Assembly: GCA_009903795.1 (NCBI GenBank) | Contig: WYER01000006.1 | Location: forward strand, 1 to 47,020 | From: Nitrososphaerota archaeon | GTDB lineage: Archaea; Thermoproteota; Nitrososphaeria; Conexivisphaerales; UBA164 | DNA length: 47,020 nt | Direction of reading: 5' to 3' | Shown here: positions 2,161 through 12,983 of the stretch, piece after piece | Layout: every line of letters starts with the position of its first letter | Numbering within the stretch: position 1 is the first letter of the stretch | Translations under genes and position numbers: made by a program | Notes under the pieces: model-generated | What the model saw: the letters and a program-made list of their open reading frames with translations, nothing else | What the model was told of the DNA's origin: nothing | Database searches by the model: none

Positions 2161-3906
2161 ATGGATTTTTTATCCGACCTTGAACTCGGGGCGCTCATGA
2201 ACAGGATCTACCCAACTATACAGGGAAGGTACATTAATAACGTTTACTCGTTAGATGAGCTCAGGTATTCCTTTACAGTTAAAGATTACGAATACGCCCT
2301 GAACGTTCACCTAAAGATAGGCCTCTGGCTTTCAGACATGTACATAAAAGAAAGGTGGGAAAGCGAATTTATCAGAAAACTCAGGGACTTTATGGAAGGG
2401 AGCAGGATTGAAGGGCTTGAAGTTCCGGCGGGACAGAGGTTGATAGTTATGCGCCTGAGCTCCGGGACAATCTACTTTGAGCTATTCGGAACATCTAACG
2501 TTGTATGCACAGACAGGTCAGGCATAATACAGTGCGCTCTTAGAGAAGAGGAGTTCAGGGATAGGAAGGTGAAACCTGGAGAAGCTTACATCTTGCCAAA
2601 GCTCAAGGGAACCCCGCTTGCCGAGCTTCCGGAACCTCCGTTTAACGAGAAAGTCTCAGTATCCAGGCACCTTGGCTTTTTTATTGCGACTTCAAGAAAG
2701 TTCATAGAGGAGATACTTTTCAGGGCAGGTGTTCAGCCGGAGAAGCCCGCCAACGCGCTTTCTGATGCTGAAAAGGAAGCTATAAAAAGCGCCATGAAGC
2801 AGATAGTCAGCGAGTGCTCTTCCTCCGATAAGATGTACGCTTATTCAGAAGGCACATATTCGTTTATAAAACTTTTATCAAAAGGGGATCCTGTCGCGGT
2901 TTACAGCATCCCTTTTGGCATAAAGGAGGCCTTTGATCCGTTTCTGTTTAAAGTTCAGGAAGAATCCGAAGACGAAAAGAAGAAGGCACTGGCTCAAAGC
3001 TATCTTGAAAAGGCAAAGCTTCTCAGAGATATAGCAGCTAGGCTTATGGAAGGGGATGCTGAAAGCATAAAATCTTATATAGAAGAAAAAGGCGGAAGCT
3101 ATGCTGAAGGGGTGCTGAAGGTTGCAGGAGAAACTGTTAAAGCTGATTCTCTGCCGGCCCTTGCTTCAAAGCTTTACGAAAGGGCGAAAAACTATGAAGT
3201 TGGCGCAAAAAAGGTACTTAACTCAAAGTCAAAGGTAAAGGAAAAAAAGGTAAAGGTCGTCAGCGTAAAGAAGAGGGAATGGTACGAAAAGTACAGGTGG
3301 TTTATAACTTCAGAAGGTTTACTTGCAGTTGGCGGTAGGGACGCCAGCAGCAACGAAGCAATCCTGAGAAAGTACGTCAAGCCAGACGATTACGTTTTTC
3401 ACGCTGAGCTCCCTGGTTCTCCTTTCTTTGTTGTCAGCGGAAGAGCCGGAGAAACGTCGCTCAAAGAAGTAGCTACAGCGACAGCATCTTTCAGCAGGGC
3501 CTGGAAGATGGGTCTGACTACAGCTGACGTTTATTATGTAAAGGGGGATCAGCTGAGCTTAGCTGCGCCTTCAGGTGAGTACATGGGAAAGGGCTCAGCC
3601 ATGATACTCGGAAAGAGGAACTACGTTAAAGGGCTGAAGCTTAAGCTTGGCGTCGGGCTCGCAAGAGTTGGCGATGATCTAAAGGCTTACTGTGCCCCGC
3701 TTAGTTCAGCTTCAAAGATGTGCGACTGGTTCATCGAAATAGAGCCTGGGAGGCTTTCGCAGGCTGAAGCAGCCAAGAAGATTCAGAAAAAGCTTTCAGA
3801 GCTTTATGGTATTGTTATTTCACTTGAAGAGATTCAAAAGGTCCTTCCTGCCGGAAACACCGACATAGTTGGCATAAGGAAGAAAGGTGATATCCCTTTT
3901 ATCTAG
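2161..3906 (+). CDS. rqcH: Rqc2/NEMF homologue (NFACT protein), ribosome quality control
   Basis: A 581-residue NFACT-family protein. The N-terminal NFACT-N domain starts at once with LSDLELGALMNRIY and continues through KIGLWLSDMY. A helix-hairpin and coiled-coil region covers roughly residues 170-370, with the very charged KVKEKKVKVVSVKKREW linker. The NFACT-R (DUF814) domain follows at about 375-500 with WFITSEG, GGRDASSNE and HAELPGSPFF. Family members bind 60S/50S subunits carrying stalled peptidyl-tRNA and add C-terminal tails to the blocked nascent chain. The start at 2161 fits the family N-terminus. The 3' end overlaps the convergent ribK by 4 bp. Confidence 0.92.
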   Translation: MDFLSDLELGALMNRIYPTIQGRYINNVYSLDELRYSFTVKDYEYALNVHLKIGLWLSDMYIKERWESEFIRKLRDFMEGSRIEGLEVPAGQRLIVMRLSSGTIYFELFGTSNVVCTDRSGIIQCALREEEFRDRKVKPGEAYILPKLKGTPLAELPEPPFNEKVSVSRHLGFFIATSRKFIEEILFRAGVQPEKPANALSDAEKEAIKSAMKQIVSECSSSDKMYAYSEGTYSFIKLLSKGDPVAVYSIPFGIKEAFDPFLFKVQEESEDEKKKALAQSYLEKAKLLRDIAARLMEGDAESIKSYIEEKGGSYAEGVLKVAGETVKADSLPALASKLYERAKNYEVGAKKVLNSKSKVKEKKVKVVSVKKREWYEKYRWFITSEGLLAVGGRDASSNEAILRKYVKPDDYVFHAELPGSPFFVVSGRAGETSLKEVATATASFSRAWKMGLTTADVYYVKGDQLSLAAPSGEYMGKGSAMILGKRNYVKGLKLKLGVGLARVGDDLKAYCAPLSSASKMCDWFIEIEPGRLSQAEAAKKIQKKLSELYGIVISLEEIQKVLPAGNTDIVGIRKKGDIPFI

Positions 3907-4589
3907 ATAAAAACGCTTATCTTAACCCTGTCCCCATCCTTGAGGTTCAGCTCTTTTCTTAGGTTGTACTGAGATATTATCTCTACCACGTCGATGCCAT
4001 AGTGAGTCCTCTCAATTATTATTACTGCCCCTCTAATTCCTTCTACAAAAGCGTGAAAGCACCATAAAGAACCGTACGTCCTGAGCCCGTTGGTAAAACC
4101 ATCTATCTTTATCCCGAAGTTTCTGTATTCGTTTAGCTTTTCCCTTTCCTTTATGTACTTGCTGTCTAGCCTTATATTAAGTGTACCTGGATATGGCGTA
4201 AACCCGAGCTTCTTGATGAACTGCTCTTTGTAACCATCAAGAGACATGTAATAAGCACCTTCCCCAAGCCCACTGAACACCGTTCCTTCCATGTTAATCG
4301 TCGTAGGTGCTTCTTCGAGCTCGTTCCTCAACAGAAGGTATACGGTTACAAGCAGGTCCACTCCTTTCTGTGTAAGCCTTACGCTGGTTCCTTCTTTTTC
4401 CACAATCCTCTGTATGTATCCTTCTTTCTCTAGCTTCGACAGATAAATGCTTGCGCTCTGCTGCGATTTTCCGAGAATCTCTGCAAGCTCGCTGGTCTTG
4501 ACCGTAATGAATCTATCTTTTGCCCCCAGCAGCATGAGGTTGAACAACAGCTCGAAGTTCTTCAGCTCAAGCTTTTTCAAAACCAGCAC
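3903..4589 (-). CDS. ribK: CTP-dependent riboflavin kinase with N-terminal winged helix (RbkR type)
   Basis: 228 residues in two parts. Residues 1-90 form a MarR-like winged helix (KTSELAEILGKSQQSASIYLSKLEKEGYIQR). Residues ~100-228 form the archaeal riboflavin kinase domain, with FSGLGEGAYYMSL, PYPGTLNIRL, RTHYGIDVVEII and LRKELNLKDGD motifs. The enzyme makes FMN from riboflavin using CTP. Archaeal proteins with this fused HTH (RbkR) also act as transcriptional regulators of riboflavin genes. No other riboflavin gene is nearby, so any regulation would be in trans. The start is a GTG at 4587-4589; no ATG lies upstream in frame before the AT-rich promoter region. Confidence 0.93.
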   Translation of the reverse strand: MLVLKKLELKNFELLFNLMLLGAKDRFITVKTSELAEILGKSQQSASIYLSKLEKEGYIQRIVEKEGTSVRLTQKGVDLLVTVYLLLRNELEEAPTTINMEGTVFSGLGEGAYYMSLDGYKEQFIKKLGFTPYPGTLNIRLDSKYIKEREKLNEYRNFGIKIDGFTNGLRTYGSLWCFHAFVEGIRGAVIIIERTHYGIDVVEIISQYNLRKELNLKDGDRVKISVFI

Positions 4590-4631: not shown

Positions 4632-4988
4632 TCAGGCTTCAGCTGTGATGTCTACTTCCGTCAGGATTTCTTCGTCTATGAAGCTGCAAACCACTGTCGT
4701 TCTTGACGGCTTGTGTGGGAAATACTTTTCAAAGAGCTCGTTCATTTCCTGAAAGTACTTTCTGTCAGCAAGGTAAACTACAACTTTAACTGTTTTGTCG
4801 AGAGAGCTCCCAGCAGCTTTAAGTATTGATTCAGCCTTTCTTACAGCGTTTTCAAACTGTTCCTTAAAGCCTGTCTTCTTTCCCTTTTCTGTCCCTATCT
4901 GTCCTGATACAAAAATCAGCCCTCCTGAAATAACCGCATGGGAATAAGGTCCAGCTTTCGGAAGCGAATCCACGTTTACGTTCTTCAT
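4632..4988 (-). CDS. ridA: RidA family enamine/imine deaminase
   Basis: 118 residues. The frame is open upstream through the tRNA-Ser gene, but the family N-terminus (VDSLPKAGPYSHAV) begins right after the ATG at 4986-4988, which is taken as the start. RidA proteins hydrolyse reactive 2-aminoacrylate-type enamines released by PLP enzymes. Family features seen are GPYSHAV, GLIFVSGQIGT, the middle VVYLADRKYFQEMNE and the C-terminal PSRTTVV, which carries the substrate-binding arginine. An AT-rich TTTTTAG box on the minus strand at about 5011-5017 sits 23-29 nt upstream, so the gene is probably leaderless and transcribed separately from the tRNA. Confidence 0.93.
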   Translation of the reverse strand: MKNVNVDSLPKAGPYSHAVISGGLIFVSGQIGTEKGKKTGFKEQFENAVRKAESILKAAGSSLDKTVKVVVYLADRKYFQEMNELFEKYFPHKPSRTTVVCSFIDEEILTEVDITAEA

Positions 4989-5028
4989 GACATTAAATTG
5001 CAGTAAGCTTCTAAAAAGTCTTGCGTTC

Positions 5029-5038
5029 AAAAAAAAAA
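5029..5038 (-). terminator. Poly-T terminator of tRNA-Ser
   Basis: On the minus strand the tRNA-Ser gene is followed directly by ten T residues. Oligo-T runs end transcripts of archaeal RNA polymerase, so this should separate the tRNA from ridA, whose promoter lies just beyond. Confidence 0.55.
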
Positions 5039-5124
5039 CGCCGGGGGTGGGATTCGAACCCACAAGGCCGATTACGGCCACAGGCTCTCAAGGCCTGCCC
5101 CATACCAGGTTAGGGGACCCCGGC
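5039..5124 (-). tRNA. tRNA-Ser (UGA)
   Basis: Read on the minus strand, an 86-nt cloverleaf has acceptor arms GCCGGGG and CCCCGGC with discriminator G. The anticodon arm is CAGGC-CTTGAGA-GCCTG (anticodon TGA), a long variable arm (GGCCG..CGGCC) marks a class II tRNA, and the T-arm is GTGGGTTCGAATCCCAC. The UGA anticodon assigns serine. CCA is not encoded and no intron is seen. The 5' end abuts the stop codon of the deaminase gene with no spacer. Confidence 0.96.
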
Positions 5125-6492
5125 TTACATCCAGTACTTTAAGCCGCTCCTACTTAAAAGTTCAGCTGCATATTCGTCAGCTTTTTCGTAGACTTCTTCT
5201 TCGTCTACTGTTAGCACCTTTCCTTCCTTCTTTAAGAACTTTCCGTCAACTATAAGATCAGTGCAGTCGTTTCCTGTTCCAGAGTACATGAGGTTTGAAA
5301 GAGGCTGAAGCCTTGGGAACATGTGTGGAGCCCTTGTGTTGAAAACTGCAATGTCGGCCTTCATGCCTTTTTTCAACATTCCAACATCTTTTTCTATTCC
5401 CATGGCCTTTGCACCGTTATATGTTGCCATCTTGAGAACAGTAAAAACGTCAATGGCCTGAGGGTCTAGCGTGCTTACCTTCTGCAGGAGGAGAACTAGC
5501 TTCATTTCCCTTATAAGGTCATAATCATCGTTGCTAGGGCCTCCGTCTGTTCCTAGTGCAACGTTTACTCCGTTCTTCAACATCTTCGTTACAGGTGCTA
5601 TGCCTGAACCAAGCTTGCAGTTAGAAGATGGGTTATGCGACACAGATGTTCCAGTAGATGCAAAAATTTTCATGTCTTCTTCGTTAAGCCACACCCCGTG
5701 CACGTACACATATTTTCTCCCGACCATGCCCAATTCTTTAAGGAACTTTCCAGGCGTTGTACCCCTTCCCGAAAAGTACCTTATGTCATCCCTTACTTCA
5801 GCCAAGTGCATAGTTACTCCTGAGCCTTTTTCTTTGACTATTTGAGCGATAGTCCTGAAAAGGTCATCGCTGACAGCGCCAGGCGTCCTTGGGGAGAACC
5901 ATATCCATATCCTGTCGTCTTTGCCGTTCCATTTTGAAAAAAGATCGTTGAACAGCTTAAGCGAAAGCTGTGGATCCTCTATAAGCCCCTGATGCAGCAT
6001 CTGAGGATGATCAGCATATCCCGGTATGTCCATGATCTGTTTTCCTATGGCGGCCCTCATCCCGCTTCTGTAAACGTTTTCTACAACTCTGTTTACACCA
6101 TACCTAGCATTTATTGACGTTGCAACGAATGATGAGGTGCACGTGTTTATCATTTCCAAAAGGGTTAGCTTTGTGCTTATGTCCATGATATTTTCGTCTA
6201 GGTTTCCCTGTAACGGCCAGACCCAGTCCCTTAGCCATTCTATAAGAGTTACGTTGTCCGGCACAAGGCCCCTTAGGATGCCCTGAGCCAGGTGCACGTG
6301 CGTGTTTATAAGCCCGGGCAAAACAATCCTGTCCTTCCCGTCTATAACAAATTCAGCGCTTTTGCTTTTAACATTCTTCCCTATTTCTACAATCCTGTCA
6401 TCCTCAACGTATATAGATCCTTCTCTTATAATTGGCTGTTCGTCGTCTGCAGTTGCTATAAAAGCGTTCTTAATAAGGACGCTCGTCATCAT
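5125..6492 (-). CDS. Amidohydrolase: MTA / S-adenosylhomocysteine / 5'-deoxyadenosine deaminase type
   Basis: 455 residues, the family's usual length. Metal ligands of the amidohydrolase superfamily are visible: HxH in GLINTHVHLAQG (H65, H67), H in VTMHLAE, H in YVHGVWL and D in LGTDGGPSNDD. The N-terminal and C-terminal beta-sandwich parts (LIKNAFIATADD, GMKADIAVF) are typical. LIEWLRDWVWPLQ and SHNPSSNCKLGSG resemble the deaminases acting on methylthioadenosine, S-adenosylhomocysteine and deoxyadenosine, which feed methionine and purine salvage. Closely related chlorohydrolase-like deaminases cannot be separated by eye. The start is one of two adjacent ATGs (6492 or 6489). A TTATATAAT box on the minus strand at 6509-6517 gives it its own promoter downstream of the ECF genes. 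Confidence 0.85.
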   Translation of the reverse strand: MMTSVLIKNAFIATADDEQPIIREGSIYVEDDRIVEIGKNVKSKSAEFVIDGKDRIVLPGLINTHVHLAQGILRGLVPDNVTLIEWLRDWVWPLQGNLDENIMDISTKLTLLEMINTCTSSFVATSINARYGVNRVVENVYRSGMRAAIGKQIMDIPGYADHPQMLHQGLIEDPQLSLKLFNDLFSKWNGKDDRIWIWFSPRTPGAVSDDLFRTIAQIVKEKGSGVTMHLAEVRDDIRYFSGRGTTPGKFLKELGMVGRKYVYVHGVWLNEEDMKIFASTGTSVSHNPSSNCKLGSGIAPVTKMLKNGVNVALGTDGGPSNDDYDLIREMKLVLLLQKVSTLDPQAIDVFTVLKMATYNGAKAMGIEKDVGMLKKGMKADIAVFNTRAPHMFPRLQPLSNLMYSGTGNDCTDLIVDGKFLKKEGKVLTVDEEEVYEKADEYAAELLSRSGLKYWM

Positions 6493-6525: not shown

Positions 6526-7245
6526 TCACGCAAACATTCCTATGTAAACAATAAGTGATAAAATCAGGATCATGAAGATCAAATCAGAAGTTCTTAAAGG
6601 GTATTCATAGATAAACGTTGGCTTCTCTGAAGCGCCATAACCCCTTAACTCAAGCGCTTCTGCTAGCTGCTGACTTCTTACTATTGATACAACAAAAAGA
6701 GGCACTAGTATTGTATAATAATTCTTTAAAAGCTTAAAAATATTTTTTGTATCAAAATCAACGCCCCTGGCTTTCTGAACCTCTATAATCTGAGAAATGT
6801 CAGATGCGAGCACAGGTATGAACTTGTAAGTTGTTGAAATAAGAAAAGAAAAATCCCGCCATCGAAGGACTTTTCTCGCCATATAATCAATTTCGTCAGG
6901 GGAAACGGACGTAAACATTATTGATGAAGAAAAAACAAGGTTGACGAACCTCAGAGCATAAGCAAACCCAGTCAATACGCTTCTCCCGAGCAAAAATTCA
7001 GCAATAAAGATTATTGTAGCAAAAGGCGCTGAGGGCACAAGGGATCCAGCATTGTTCCTGAGCTTTTTTGCGCTCGCGCTCAAAGTCAGCATTAAAACAA
7101 AAAGCGAAAGCGCTTTTTCAAAAGAAAAGAAAGCAAGGGAAGCAACTATAAGTATTAGCCCAGCAGCTATTTTGGTGTATGGATTTAACCTATACAGCCA
7201 GCTATCTTTCTGCTCGTAAACGAAGGCTCTAGATATTGCTGACAC
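6526..7245 (-). CDS. ecfT: ECF transporter transmembrane protein EcfT
   Basis: 239 residues with five or six hydrophobic helices and the two EcfT coupling signatures, QKARGVDFD and LELRGYGASE, whose Arg residues contact the ATPases. EcfT is the scaffold that joins a substrate-binding S component to the EcfA ATPases in vitamin and metal importers. The GTG start (7243-7245) overlaps the end of the upstream ecfA by 17 bp, so it is translationally coupled as the last gene of an ecfA-ecfA-ecfT operon. No S component lies inside the operon. The nearest candidate is the membrane protein at 9394-10098. Confidence 0.9.
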   Translation of the reverse strand: MSAISRAFVYEQKDSWLYRLNPYTKIAAGLILIVASLAFFSFEKALSLFVLMLTLSASAKKLRNNAGSLVPSAPFATIIFIAEFLLGRSVLTGFAYALRFVNLVFSSSIMFTSVSPDEIDYMARKVLRWRDFSFLISTTYKFIPVLASDISQIIEVQKARGVDFDTKNIFKLLKNYYTILVPLFVVSIVRSQQLAEALELRGYGASEKPTFIYEYPLRTSDLIFMILILSLIVYIGMFA

Positions 7246-8029
7246 CTTTTATGACCTCCGCGGCATCTTCAACGCTAAGAGCCGGTTCCTTTAGAGATAG
7301 CTTTTTTGAAATTACTGAAAGCTGTGGTTCTATAAGGTTTGCATCGCTGTAATTAGCTTCTTTAAATAGTTCTTTCATCTTTCCCATCCAGACAACTTTA
7401 CCTTCCTTAACTACAAAAGTTGAAGGGTTAAGGGGCCAAAGAAATTCCATGTCATGAGATGTAATTATAACTCCTTTACCTTCTTTCAGCATCTCATCCA
7501 TCAGATTTCTCAGGTTCTTAAGGTTTAGCCCATCCTGTCCCACTGTTGGTTCATCAAACACTATATACTTTGGATCCCACGCGTAAACTATTGCAAACGT
7601 AAGCCTCTTCTTTTCTCCGCCGCTTAGGCTTAAAGGTGGTCTGTTAGCGTACTTTGAGAGCCCAAACCTATCGAGAGCCTTCATTGCTCTATCCTGGGCC
7701 TCTCTTCTGTCATAGCCCATGTTCTTGAGCGCAAACATGACTTCCTCGAGCACTGTACGTTCAAAAAGCTGGTAGTCCGGATTCTGAAAGATTATTCCCA
7801 CCTTTCTTATTATTTCTAAATGGCTGCTCTTTTTTGTATCAATGCCATCTACGTAAACGCTTCCACGGGTAGGCTTTATGATTCCTGATATGAGTTTTGC
7901 TATCGTGGTCTTCCCCGCGCCGTTTGGGCCCACAAAAGCAGTTACTTCACCTTCTTTTATTTCAAGAGAAACACCTTCTACAGCGTACCGAGTACCGTAG
8001 GTATAGTAAACATCTTTCAGTTTTATCAT
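7229..8029 (-). CDS. ecfA: ECF transporter ATPase EcfA (second copy)
   Basis: 266-residue ABC ATPase. Walker A GPNGAGKT lies near residue 34, the Q-loop is FQNPDYQLF, the signature LSGGEKKR, Walker B YIVFDEP and the switch His is in ITSHD. The QNPDxQ sequence is characteristic of the energy-coupling-factor subfamily (CbiO/EcfA). It overlaps the preceding ecfA by 4 bp (ATGA-type) and ecfT by 17 bp. With the other ATPase it should form the heterodimer that powers substrate uptake across the cytoplasmic membrane. Confidence 0.92.
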   Translation of the reverse strand: MIKLKDVYYTYGTRYAVEGVSLEIKEGEVTAFVGPNGAGKTTIAKLISGIIKPTRGSVYVDGIDTKKSSHLEIIRKVGIIFQNPDYQLFERTVLEEVMFALKNMGYDRREAQDRAMKALDRFGLSKYANRPPLSLSGGEKKRLTFAIVYAWDPKYIVFDEPTVGQDGLNLKNLRNLMDEMLKEGKGVIITSHDMEFLWPLNPSTFVVKEGKVVWMGKMKELFKEANYSDANLIEPQLSVISKKLSLKEPALSVEDAAEVIKGVSNI

Positions 8030-8859
8030 ATAAAGCTTCCACCTTTTTGTCCATTCAATCCTCTAAGAAAGTCGTCAAACCTGCTGTAAATGACCCTACC
8101 ATAAGCTTTTTTCTGTACTTCGATAAAAGCAGGTACCCTAAGCTCTGACCCACTATAATTTTCAAGGACCTCATTAACTTTCCCAAATTCAACAATCCTA
8201 CCATCTTTCATCACGGCAATATAGTCAGCTATCTCAGAAAAAAGTTCAATCCTGTGTTCAACGACTATTGTTGAAGCTCCCCTTTTTCTAATAGCATCCT
8301 TTACTTTTGATGAAACCATCTTTGCTGTGGCAGGGTCAAGAGTGGAAGTCGGTTCATCGAGTATAAGGATTTTTGGGTCCATTACCAATATACCAGCTAT
8401 TGCAACTAGCTGCTTCTGTCCATCGCTGAGCGTCCTGAGAGGTCTGTCCTTAAGTTCATAAATCCCGAGCTCCTTTAAAGCTGATTCTGTCTTGTTTATA
8501 ATTTGCTCCTTTTCAAAGCCAAGGTTTTCTAGCCCGAACGCTACTTCCCTTTCAACAACGTATGAGACGAGCTGGTTTTCAGGATTCTGGAAAACATACC
8601 CAACGCTTAGTGCCAAGTCTTTTTGTGACATTTTGAGCACGTTTTTTCCGTCTATCAACACTTCTCCCGAGTAGCTTCCCTCATATATTTTTGGCACAAG
8701 CCCGGTTATTGCTCTTAGGAGAGTAGTTTTTCCGCACCCGCTGGGTCCTGTTAGCAGCAAAATTTTTCCATAAGGGAGGCTTAAAGAAACATTGTCTAGA
8801 GCTTTTACAGCCTCTCCTTTATAAGTAAAAGAAAGGTTCTTAACTTCAAGTGCGTACAT
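8026..8859 (-). CDS. ecfA: ECF transporter ATPase EcfA (first copy)
   Basis: 277-residue ABC ATPase, first gene of the importer operon. Walker A is GPSGCGKT, the Q-loop FQNPENQL, Walker B ILILDEP and the switch His VVEHR. The signature motif reads LSDGQKQL rather than the usual LSGGQ. The two ATPases are clearly different from each other, as in the EcfA/EcfA' heterodimers. The start is the ATG at 8857-8859. The promoter region holds a 12-bp perfect inverted repeat shared with the divergent gene at 8920. Confidence 0.92.
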   Translation of the reverse strand: MYALEVKNLSFTYKGEAVKALDNVSLSLPYGKILLLTGPSGCGKTTLLRAITGLVPKIYEGSYSGEVLIDGKNVLKMSQKDLALSVGYVFQNPENQLVSYVVEREVAFGLENLGFEKEQIINKTESALKELGIYELKDRPLRTLSDGQKQLVAIAGILVMDPKILILDEPTSTLDPATAKMVSSKVKDAIRKRGASTIVVEHRIELFSEIADYIAVMKDGRIVEFGKVNEVLENYSGSELRVPAFIEVQKKAYGRVIYSRFDDFLRGLNGQKGGSFI

Positions 8860-8867
8860 GCGTTTTG

Positions 8868-8896
8868 TTTAAACTTTATCACAAATAAAGTTTAAA
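8868..8896. promoter_or_regulatory. Inverted repeat between divergent promoters (candidate operator)
   Basis: TTTAAACTTTAT (8868-8879) and its exact reverse complement (8885-8896) are separated by five bases. The palindrome fills the 60-bp gap between the start of ecfA (8859, minus) and the GTG of the cysteine-rich gene (8920, plus). The right arm places TTTAAA 24 nt before that GTG, so it overlaps the TATA box. A dimeric regulator bound here could control both directions. The function is inferred only from position and symmetry. Confidence 0.5.
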
Positions 8897-8919
8897 TTTT
8901 TTGTAAACTTAACATTTTT

Positions 8920-9282
8920 GTGGAAGAAGAAGTTATAAAGATAAAGACCAAGGGATACTTCAAGCTTCCTTCTCTAGGTAAGAAGACATTTTCAGATCTT
9001 ATGAGGGCAGGGCTTTCTTACACCAGTGGAGTAGGCTTCAGCATAAGACCAGGCGCTGATCTTGAGTTTGTTAAAAAAGCGCTCGAAAAAGCTCTCAAGA
9101 AAAAGGTATTTTTTGTTTTTAACTGCGTTATATGCGGAAAAGAGACGGATTGTTCAACATGTATGTTCAGCGATGTTTGTCCAATAGAAACAACTGATAA
9201 TTACTGTCTTTGCGATGAGTGCTTTAGTAAAAGAAACCTGAATGATTATTTTAACGCAACAAAAAAGATCTTTAGTGTTTGA
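8920..9282 (+). CDS. Uncharacterised eight-cysteine, probably zinc-binding protein
   Basis: 120 residues from a GTG start with a well placed TATA-like box upstream. No family is recognised with confidence. The first ~65 residues look like a small alpha/beta domain (GYFKLPSLGKK, RAGLSYTSGVGFSI, FVKKALEKALKKKV). The second half is cysteine-rich, with C69xxC72, C78xxC81, C87 and C96xC98xxC101, enough for two metal sites. It is transcribed divergently from the ECF importer operon across a shared palindrome, so a regulatory or metal-handling role linked to that importer is possible but unproven. There is no signal peptide or membrane segment. Confidence 0.7.
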   Translation: MEEEVIKIKTKGYFKLPSLGKKTFSDLMRAGLSYTSGVGFSIRPGADLEFVKKALEKALKKKVFFVFNCVICGKETDCSTCMFSDVCPIETTDNYCLCDECFSKRNLNDYFNATKKIFSV

Positions 9283-9393
9283 GCATATAAGTTTCCATTT
9301 TTGCTACTTGATTAATAGCTTAATTGCAAAAAAGATGAAGTTTTCCTGTAAAGAGTCTGGTTAATAAAGTTAAAAGTTTAACAATAAGTTATC

Positions 9394-10098
9394 TCACGTA
9401 ACCCAGCCGAGGTTAACGAGCCCGAGCTCTTCAAGGTTTTCCGTCATCGATTTTATCAGGATAGGTTCAATCGTTATGTCACTTATAAAGTTAGAAAAAC
9501 TCCACACATAGAACCAGAAAACGGCTTCATCTTTTGTAAAATAGCTTATTGCATTCAAAAAATAAAGTCCTGAGCCAACTTCAACAAGGTTTAAGAGGAC
9601 ATCGTTGACGATCAAAAAAGCAACCCATGCGTACAACCTTTTGGTCTTTTTACCACCTATCTCAGAACTCAAAAGATCTCTCTTTAGTGGATCGATGCCG
9701 AACCTGTTCAGTACACTTCTGTACACAACAAATGACAGCAAAGCAGGAACAATGTAAACAGAGCTTAAAAATAAGGCATATAACGGCTTTAACCTTGTTG
9801 TATAAAACACCCCTGCGCTTATTCCTGCATAGGAAGCCATAATCCCCCAGATTCCCCAGATCGTTACGAATTCGATTACAAAGGGGAAAAGCATAAAAAA
9901 GATTGTAGATCCTACTTTCCCCCCGATGAATATGTACTGGTTTAGGTATACCAAAGCAAAATCAACGGCAAACGCTGAAAAGTTAAGAATCAGAACCAAA
10001 GGGTTAAGTTTGCTTTTTGGGTTCCATTTGAGCGAATATTTCGTAAACGTGTTATCAGATTCGTTTAAAGACAAACTATTATTATTTTTGAGGATCAA
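9394..10098 (-). CDS. Multi-helix membrane protein, candidate ECF S component
   Basis: 234 residues from the TTG at 10096-10098. After a polar N-terminus of ~30 residues there are about six hydrophobic segments, including one with a GGKVGS loop and one with GIWGIMASYAGISAG. The latter resembles the small-residue face that S components use to dock onto EcfT. It ends near the convergent cysteine-rich gene and has the same strand as ecfA-ecfA-ecfT, about 540 bp upstream of them. I do not recognise a specific S family, so the substrate is unknown. An unrelated integral membrane protein remains possible. Two tandem palindromes lie just upstream of its start. Confidence 0.65.
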   Translation of the reverse strand: MILKNNNSLSLNESDNTFTKYSLKWNPKSKLNPLVLILNFSAFAVDFALVYLNQYIFIGGKVGSTIFFMLFPFVIEFVTIWGIWGIMASYAGISAGVFYTTRLKPLYALFLSSVYIVPALLSFVVYRSVLNRFGIDPLKRDLLSSEIGGKKTKRLYAWVAFLIVNDVLLNLVEVGSGLYFLNAISYFTKDEAVFWFYVWSFSNFISDITIEPILIKSMTENLEELGLVNLGWVT

Positions 10099-10102
10099 AA
10101 TC

Positions 10103-10147
10103 TTAACCTTTACGCGTTAACAAATTCTTTAACCTTATATGGGTTAA
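10103..10147. promoter_or_regulatory. Tandem operator-like palindromes upstream of the membrane protein gene
   Basis: Two similar imperfect palindromes stand in tandem. One is TTAACCTTTACGCGTTAA at 10103-10120 and the other TTAACCTTATATGGGTTAA at 10129-10147, about 26 bp apart centre to centre. They cover the -5 to -49 region of the TTG-started gene at 10098, where its promoter must lie. This layout suits a dimeric transcription factor binding two sites. No other copy of the motif was noticed in the window. Confidence 0.4.
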
Positions 10148-12578: not shown

Positions 12579-12983
12579 TCAATCAACTATCATTATTTTT
12601 ACAGGATCAACTTTTTCTTCTTTTAGTATAAAGGCTTGCATCTTTAGGTCAGTCATGGATATTATTATCCATACATATGGGTTTAATTTCATATATTTTA
12701 TATCAGTCGTTGAAGGTACTGGCAAACCGTGATGGCTGTGAACTATAGCAACGATATCTAAACCCTTTTCTTCAGCTCTTTTATATATGTTGAGAAGTTC
12801 ATCAGGCTCTACGTTAAATTCAGCTGGAGAATTTGCTGCATTTTTTGCTTTAACAAGCTCTTTTACGTTATAAACATCGTTATTTATAAATCCTAAAAGA
12901 AAACAAACAGCTTCATTAGGTTTGTTTATATAAATGTAGTTAATCATTTCATTCAGAACGTTTTTAGGTATACTTATTATCAA
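12579..12983 (-). CDS. JAMM/MPN+ metalloprotease-like protein
   Basis: 134 residues, a stand-alone JAMM domain. Expected zinc and catalytic residues are present: E24 in NEAVCFLLG, then H82 and H84 in VHSHHG, S91 and D94 in PSTTD. Archaeal relatives remove ubiquitin-like SAMP proteins from targets or act in sulfur carrier processing. Between the second His and the Ser there are six residues (HGLPVP) rather than the seven of the classical HxHx7SxxD motif. The gene is convergent with atpI and preceded by a long AT-rich gap. Confidence 0.85.
   Translation of the reverse strand: MIISIPKNVLNEMINYIYINKPNEAVCFLLGFINNDVYNVKELVKAKNAANSPAEFNVEPDELLNIYKRAEEKGLDIVAIVHSHHGLPVPSTTDIKYMKLNPYVWIIISMTDLKMQAFILKEEKVDPVKIMIVD

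Follow-up and report, generated by a model that had tools for sequence, protein, structure and literature searches.

A candidate archaeal ECF importer with an uncatalogued S-component family, adjoined by an eight-cysteine protein from clamp-loader neighbourhoods

The locus considered here lies within a window of 47,020 nucleotides (the whole stretch of DNA that was analysed) from a Nitrososphaerota archaeon. It comprises the genes of an ECF energy-coupling module, an inverted repeat, a gene for an eight-cysteine protein (CYS8), a gene for a 234-aa membrane protein and the neighbours downstream of ecfT, as follows:

3903-4589, minus strand: HTH plus CTP-dependent riboflavin kinase, RbkR type (Pfam CTP-dep_RFKase, 4.9e-44)
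5125-6492, minus strand: amidohydrolase of the deoxyadenosine/MTA/guanine deaminase type (family matches below equivalog cut-offs)
6526-7245, minus strand: ecfT, transmembrane scaffold of the ECF module (Pfam CbiQ, E 1e-18; motifs ARG159 and LRG200)
7229-8029, minus strand: ecfA2, ECF ATPase (best NCBIfam match ECF_ATPase_2, 206 bits, below the equivalog cut-off; Walker A/B and signature)
8026-8859, minus strand: ecfA1, ECF ATPase (best NCBIfam match ECF_ATPase_1, 206 bits, below the cut-off; Walker A/B and signature)
8868-8896, no strand: inverted repeat TTTAAACTTTAT-cacaa-ATAAAGTTTAAA with 12-bp arms and a 5-bp spacer, holding TATA-like elements of both divergent genes
8920-9282, plus strand: CYS8, eight-cysteine protein of 120 aa from an rfcL-linked family (eight invariant Cys in 30 homologs)
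9394-10098, minus strand: candidate ECF S-component of 234 aa with six helices and a TTG start (conserved part from about residue 20)

The genes ecfA1, ecfA2 and ecfT (A-A-T) form a tight operon with overlapping reading frames. Motif inspection identified Walker A, the signature and Walker B in both EcfA1 and EcfA2, and EcfT carries two Ala-Arg-Gly-type motifs, ARG159 and LRG200, as befits an EcfAA'T module. The A-A-T gene order is kept across families f1 to f6, and the module is class-wide. The original prediction had described a module lacking an S component, which is true of the operon, from which an S gene is absent, but not of the genome, where two further orphan S-components (PF12822) are encoded away from it. 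EcfA1-EcfA2-EcfT is therefore probably a module shared by S-components encoded elsewhere. A stand-alone A-A-T operon with unlinked S genes in the same genome is the arrangement of group II ECF modules (shared EcfA-A'-T), from which this case differs in that one candidate S gene lies near the module and sharing is presumed. One of the two orphan S-components is weakly RibU-like. An Rfam search of the window recovered tRNAs only, and a riboswitch was not found.

With regard to the 234-aa protein, the gene set and order around its reading frame are conserved in two sister species, which indicates that these are real genes. Its reading frame extends to 10098, 49 bases short of the end first given for the region (10147). 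It is convergent with the eight-cysteine gene, so the two do not form one operon. The protein matched no Pfam or NCBIfam family and thus no curated S-component model, and a PDB sequence-profile search with the membrane family gave no match. S-components diverge widely in sequence, and a match to a curated model is not a defining requirement. An AF2 model with six helices was confident (pLDDT 88.7, pTM 0.85), and a fold search of the PDB with Foldseek returned S-components (BioY, ThiT, RibU and others) at probabilities of 0.8-1.0, while other folds reached at most 0.20 among the matches listed (top 50). These S-component matches are weak by E-value (0.16 and up) and moderate by TM-score (0.5-0.6), and they are the sole high-probability ones. 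In addition, the N-terminus and loop 4 are rich in Lys/Arg, fitting the usual S-component topology.

Gene neighbourhoods point in the same direction. Among 24 distant homologs from other parts of the phylum, at least 17 have ecfT directly after the S gene; a paralog in the window genome (G000:C6) heads an S-T-AA operon; and, in three species of the genus, the window copy lies near the A-A-T module. The proposal that the membrane protein resembles an S component is thus strongly supported by the predicted fold, the S-T-A operons of its homologs and the operon of its paralog. The membrane family is probably an uncatalogued Thermoproteota (archaeal) S-component family, of which the window copy is a diverged member. 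In the tree, an 11-member family clade is supported at 100/100; the branch of the window clade is long, at 2.15 changes per column, and motifs common to the relatives of this clade are partly lost in it. The closest known proteins are the S-components BioY (4dve), ThiT (3rlb) and RibU (5kbw) and the QueT family (PF06177), which the 234-aa protein resembles in its predicted six-helix fold and in having homologs in S-T-A operons; distant family members match QueT weakly (3.6e-5, below the cut-off). It differs from all of these in lacking a significant match to a Pfam/NCBIfam S family and in its longer charged loop 4; a purine link like that predicted below was not found for them in the literature searched.

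An AXXXA docking motif in helix 1 is relatively conserved among S-components (PMC11109136). In the family described here it is not conserved, being present in the window copy (A44-A48) and absent from the two sister species and most relatives. Receptors with the S-component fold have also been described (PMC11109136), and one distant family member matches MASE1 at 4.9e-6. Together with the long branch of the window clade, these observations would suit a receptor-like or degenerate relative that has kept the fold without docking or transport. Such a loss is unlikely, since the reading frame is intact in three species and lies beside an intact A-A-T module in all three, and, unlike MASE1 / 5TMR-type sensor domains, the protein is ecfT-linked and has no fused kinase, signalling or other output domain.

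CYS8 is, as first noted, an unrecognised protein divergent from the ecf operon, with exactly eight Cys, all of them within residues 69-101. Searches of Pfam, NCBIfam and the PDB, by sequence and by fold, gave nothing usable and recognised no DNA-binding domain, and the structure model is only moderate (pLDDT 73). The same eight-cysteine pattern occurs throughout an rfcL-linked family that has no name, whose f7 members (f7 presumably being ammonia oxidisers) differ in a second, N-terminal domain, CxxC...HxxxC. The gene directly follows rfcL in families f5-f9, f23, f36 and f45, and outside the window order it does so at every locus examined, including lineages without EcfT; in eleven CYS8-bearing f7/f9 genomes, 98-99% complete, CbiQ/EcfT was not found. 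Within the window order, it is the same-strand neighbour after ecfT in 9 genomes of four families, adjoins the ecf operon divergently in the window genus, and lies away from that operon in 6 genomes. The window member thus adjoins ecf genes instead of rfcL, and UbiA-rfcL is still present elsewhere in the window genome, without CYS8. Apparently, CYS8 was moved beside the ecf genes by rearrangement in this one order.

The conserved adjacency of CYS8 to ecfA/ecfT is real but confined to a single order, where its retention in four families may reflect a secondary functional link. That CYS8 serves this importer as regulator or metal handler is nevertheless very improbable: the same-strand and divergent adjacencies are what speak for it, and the rfcL linkage in every other lineage examined, the carriers without EcfT, the 6 separated genomes and the lack of a recognised DNA-binding domain speak against it. 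The suggestion of a metal-sensing or metal-handling role for CYS8 is not supported by these comparisons. In particular, a role as ECF metal sensor was rejected given the rfcL linkage and the occurrence without EcfT and, judged by gene neighbourhoods, CYS8 is by origin a DNA-replication (clamp-loader) neighbour. An eight-cysteine protein following the clamp-loader gene in several lineages represents a testable candidate replication accessory factor.

The inverted repeat between ecfA1 and CYS8 is the sole repeat in the window with 12-bp arms and a short spacer, and first-order Markov simulations yielded 0.1 such repeats on average, which places it beyond chance. The 12-bp perfect palindrome noted earlier is thus present, but its arms are imperfect in two sister species, where the TATA-like half is invariant. 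The repeat contains TTTAAA at -29 of the CYS8 gene and TTTATTT at -30 of ecfA1, and across the genes of the window TTTAWA is over-represented between -32 and -28 (8 observed vs about 0.7 expected). With TATA-like elements at these positions of both genes, the repeat is probably a bidirectional core promoter. Its uniqueness and its place between the two gene starts would also fit an operator through which a dimeric regulator controls both divergent genes, a role made doubtful by the mismatched arms beside an invariant TATA-like half and by TATA-like hexamers whose spacing to each of the two starts is the modal one.

Taken as one, the locus is best explained, at a probability of roughly 0.6, as ECF importer genes with an unrelated neighbour, CYS8. 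This explanation draws on the gene identities, the predicted S-component-like fold and the homologs' S-T-A operons, together with purine-gene neighbourhoods (see below), the rfcL linkage and the CYS8 carriers without EcfT; the substrate, the docking of the window copy on the window module, the role of CYS8 and the promoter function are inferred. Briefly, EcfA1-EcfA2-EcfT would serve as a stand-alone, group II-like energy-coupling module open to S-components encoded elsewhere. The 234-aa protein would bind its substrate outside the cell, dock on EcfT and topple, freeing the substrate inside as the ATPases cycle. CYS8 would be an accessory protein, of zinc (or Fe-S) type, that belongs to the clamp-loader neighbourhood of RfcL, its gene placed beside the ecf genes in the ancestor of the window order, and the inverted repeat would drive ecfA1 and CYS8 as a bidirectional core promoter.

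Owing to the gene neighbourhoods, the substrate question can be tested directly. In the window genome, the single adenine deaminase gene lies 1.07 kb from the paralog G000:C6, whose S-T-AA operon is directly followed by an adenosine-deaminase gene. Adenine deaminase adjoins the family S gene in G008, G010 and G005:C65 (above the equivalog cut-off in the last), and a true adenine deaminase (567 bits vs a cut-off of 472.5) follows S-T-AA in the same operon in G605. In G588, G450, G474 and G521, S-T-AA has a divergently oriented APRT/PurR-like neighbour, the one scored reaching 183.8 bits against a cut-off of 184, and xanthine-dehydrogenase-like genes also recur near family members in separate lineages. 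The recurrence beside adenine deaminase, adenosine deaminase and APRT/PurR-like genes suggests that the family's relatives import adenine or a related purine, which the neighbouring enzymes would then deaminate or ribosylate. As the window copy sits on a long branch, a purine-like substrate for it is a first guess. Apart from the amidohydrolase across the module, no purine gene directly adjoins it, and the sister species G004 lacks adenine deaminase in its genome.

The 5-formyl-THF cyclo-ligase family includes a thiamin-linked paralog. By Pfam, several homologous S-T-A operons contain a gene of this family, and some homologs adjoin a paralog of the cyclo-ligase instead, which may point to another substrate. 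In G020, an S-AA-T-adenine deaminase operon is independent evidence for a purine link, yet its S gene is of a different family, PF09819 (cobalt permease by Pfam name). The RbkR-type gene, possibly tied to riboflavin uptake, lies on the same strand as ecfT, three genes downstream. These observations, with the weakly RibU-like orphan, would favour thiamin precursors (HMP) or riboflavin as substrate. A non-purine cargo of this kind is nevertheless rather unlikely, given that thiamin biosynthesis/salvage genes were not recognised beside close relatives and that separate lineages repeatedly show genes for adenine deaminase and ADA as well as APRT-like and xanthine-dehydrogenase-like genes.

ECF importers can carry metal ions. 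Those described in the literature found carry vitamins, cofactors or their precursors; a search mainly of openly available papers gave no report linking ECF importers to purine or adenine deaminase. A purine-specific S family, if true, would broaden the known ECF substrate range and provide a transporter for archaeal purine salvage. The full joint reading is tentative, at somewhat below even odds: a new archaeal class of ECF importers that would use an uncatalogued S family to take up adenine or related purines, with a fast-evolving window member on a class-wide shared EcfAAT and an adjoining eight-cysteine protein that would be an unrecognised clamp-loader accessory. On the module's other side, the amidohydrolase of uncertain substrate may be linked to the transporter; it lies directly downstream of ecfT, a position kept in the genus.

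The window makes up contig 28 in a genome of 1.36 Mb (G000; 92% complete) whose close relatives are Conexivisphaerales/Thaumarchaeota MAGs. All of the ecf, cysteine-rich and membrane protein genes originally described are found in it, and their order is identical in two sister species. The relevant features are:

3903-4589, minus strand: RbkR-type gene (CTP-dependent riboflavin kinase with an HTH part), encoded downstream of the ECF operon
6526-7245, minus strand: ecfT
7229-8029, minus strand: ecfA2
8026-8859, minus strand: ecfA1
8868-8896: inverted repeat (12-bp arms, 5-bp spacer)
8920-9282, plus strand: CYS8, a 120-aa protein with exactly eight cysteines, as first noted
9394-10098, minus strand: 234-aa membrane protein
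12579-12983: JAB-domain gene, 3 kb from CYS8

The ecfA1, ecfA2 and ecfT frames overlap, and the Walker A, signature and Walker B motifs of EcfA and the ARG and LRG motifs of EcfT are intact. CYS8 is divergent from this operon and convergent with the membrane protein gene. At 4632-5124, the RidA ORF as called begins with a GTG at 5081 and overlaps the tRNA-Ser gene at 5039-5124; the real start probably lies deeper inside the frame, like that of a sister locus (L003, 118 aa).

The membrane protein was originally guessed to be an S-component, which proved right in kind. Its AF2 model, built from a 21-sequence alignment, is six-helical and confident, and the leading PDB matches in Foldseek are S-components: BioY (probability 1.00, TM 0.63 by target length), 5edl (0.99), ThiT chains and RibU, with non-S matches at probabilities of at most 0.20 among the top 50 listed. 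The E-values to S-components are weak, and therefore the fold result counts together with operon evidence. Homologs occur in 9 of 300 genomes of the class and, by profile search, in 24 more genomes of the phylum, at least 17 of which have ecfT immediately after the homolog, then mostly a fused EcfAA. A paralog in the window genome (contig C6; 33% identical) is the first gene of such an S-T-AA operon, also present in G008, G010 (S gene incomplete) and G017. The predicted fold and this operon context together give good support for the family being S-components. Within an 11-row clade (100/100 support), the window clade forms a long branch. Matches of distant members to QueT and MASE1 fall below the cut-off, and the family is uncatalogued, with a likely new substrate class.

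EcfT of the window type is present through class families f1-f6 and absent from f7. In most relatives, the A-A-T operon has no recognisable adjoining S gene and often lies near exosome and prefoldin-like genes. The window genome has four CbiQ-family proteins in total; elements elsewhere in it include:

C26 and C16 (L251:6054-6584, L245:6055-6645): two orphan PF12822 S-components, one weakly RibU-like
C26:42717-43280 and C5:78609-79127: further CbiQ-family proteins, with no EcfA gene recognised near the former

The simplest reading is a shared A-A-T module.

Regarding the substrate, several neighbourhoods point to purines. The window genome has a single adenine deaminase, 1.07 kb away from the C6 paralog, whose operon is directly followed by an adenosine deaminase gene. 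In G008 and G010, an orphan S gene and adenine deaminase are oppositely arranged (convergent) and ~0.24 kb apart. Adenosine deaminase is nearby in both, joined in G010 by a ribokinase-like gene; in G005 (C65), the distance between S gene and adenine deaminase is ~0.4 kb. Other orphan copies adjoin xanthine-dehydrogenase-like genes, amidohydrolases and an ABC permease. In a different class-level lineage, a true adenine deaminase directly follows S-T-AA (G605), or an APRT/PurR-like gene is divergent from it (G588, G450, G474, G521). Purine is thus moderately probable as the substrate of the family's close members. It is rated lower for the window copy, because the enzyme closest to it is an amidohydrolase of deoxyadenosine/MTA/guanine deaminase type and sister G004 lacks adenine deaminase. 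In another sub-clade of the superfamily, the recurrent neighbour is a 5-formyl-THF cyclo-ligase paralog, which suggests another substrate there; more than one substrate is therefore probable for the superfamily as a whole. A gene of this ligase family closes the S-T-AA operons of L160, L167, L168, L176, L177 and L178. An adenine-linked ECF operon with a second S family was also observed:

L243:6095-10932 (G020, C14): S (PF09819)-EcfAA-EcfT-adenine deaminase

The 12-bp perfect palindrome between ecfA1 and CYS8 is the only inverted repeat with such arms and a short spacer within the window, but its left arm is altered in the sister species, where the right part, CACAAATAAAGTTTAAAT, is invariant. 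Across the window, TTTAWA hexamers concentrate at position -30 relative to start codons (four genes at -30; eight observed versus 0.7 expected at -32 to -28), and TTTAAA lies at -29 of CYS8 and TTTATTT at -30 of ecfA1. Judged from these motifs, a putative bidirectional core promoter yielding near-leaderless transcripts would explain the palindrome, with no regulator needed.

CYS8, proposed as a metal sensor or handler of the importer, belongs instead with rfcL, apart from the ECF system. Of 61 relatives, 55 carry a homolog, as do 93 of 398 genomes of the phylum, and all eight cysteines and one Phe are invariant among 30 aligned members. Adjacency to ecfA/ecfT holds within Conexivisphaerales, where CYS8 follows ecfT in nine f1-f4 genomes; the window genus has it divergent from ecfA1, and six genomes have it elsewhere. 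In f5, f6, f7, f8, f9, f23, f36 and f45, however, its immediate upstream neighbour, encoded on the same strand, is rfcL. Moreover, no CbiQ-family protein was found in 11 CYS8-bearing f7 and f9 genomes (98-99% completeness). In f5, ~10 kb containing moaA/B/C-like genes (named by eye) separates the rfcL-CYS8 pair from the ecf operon. Several Conexivisphaerales genomes retain moaB/moaC-like neighbours of CYS8 while the upstream partner is now ecfT, so the present adjacency looks like a rearrangement that was later kept. The CYS8 structure model is moderate and gave no match in the fold search; its cysteines are spaced as C-x2-C-x5-C-x2-C-x5-C-x8-C-x-C-x2-C, a pattern suggestive of two metal sites, most likely for zinc.

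The CYS8 family is directly behind rfcL over many lineages (L081:812-3407, L180-L208 and other loci). In f7, which we infer to be ammonia oxidisers from their complete genomes of 1.2-1.9 Mb and a carboxyl-transferase gene adjoining rfcL, a 371-aa protein without Pfam match precedes rfcL in the same gene row, and the cysteine protein has an extra zinc-finger-like N-terminus. In one genus (L013-L015; G005, G008 and G010), CYS8 adjoins a homolog of the window JAB-domain gene.
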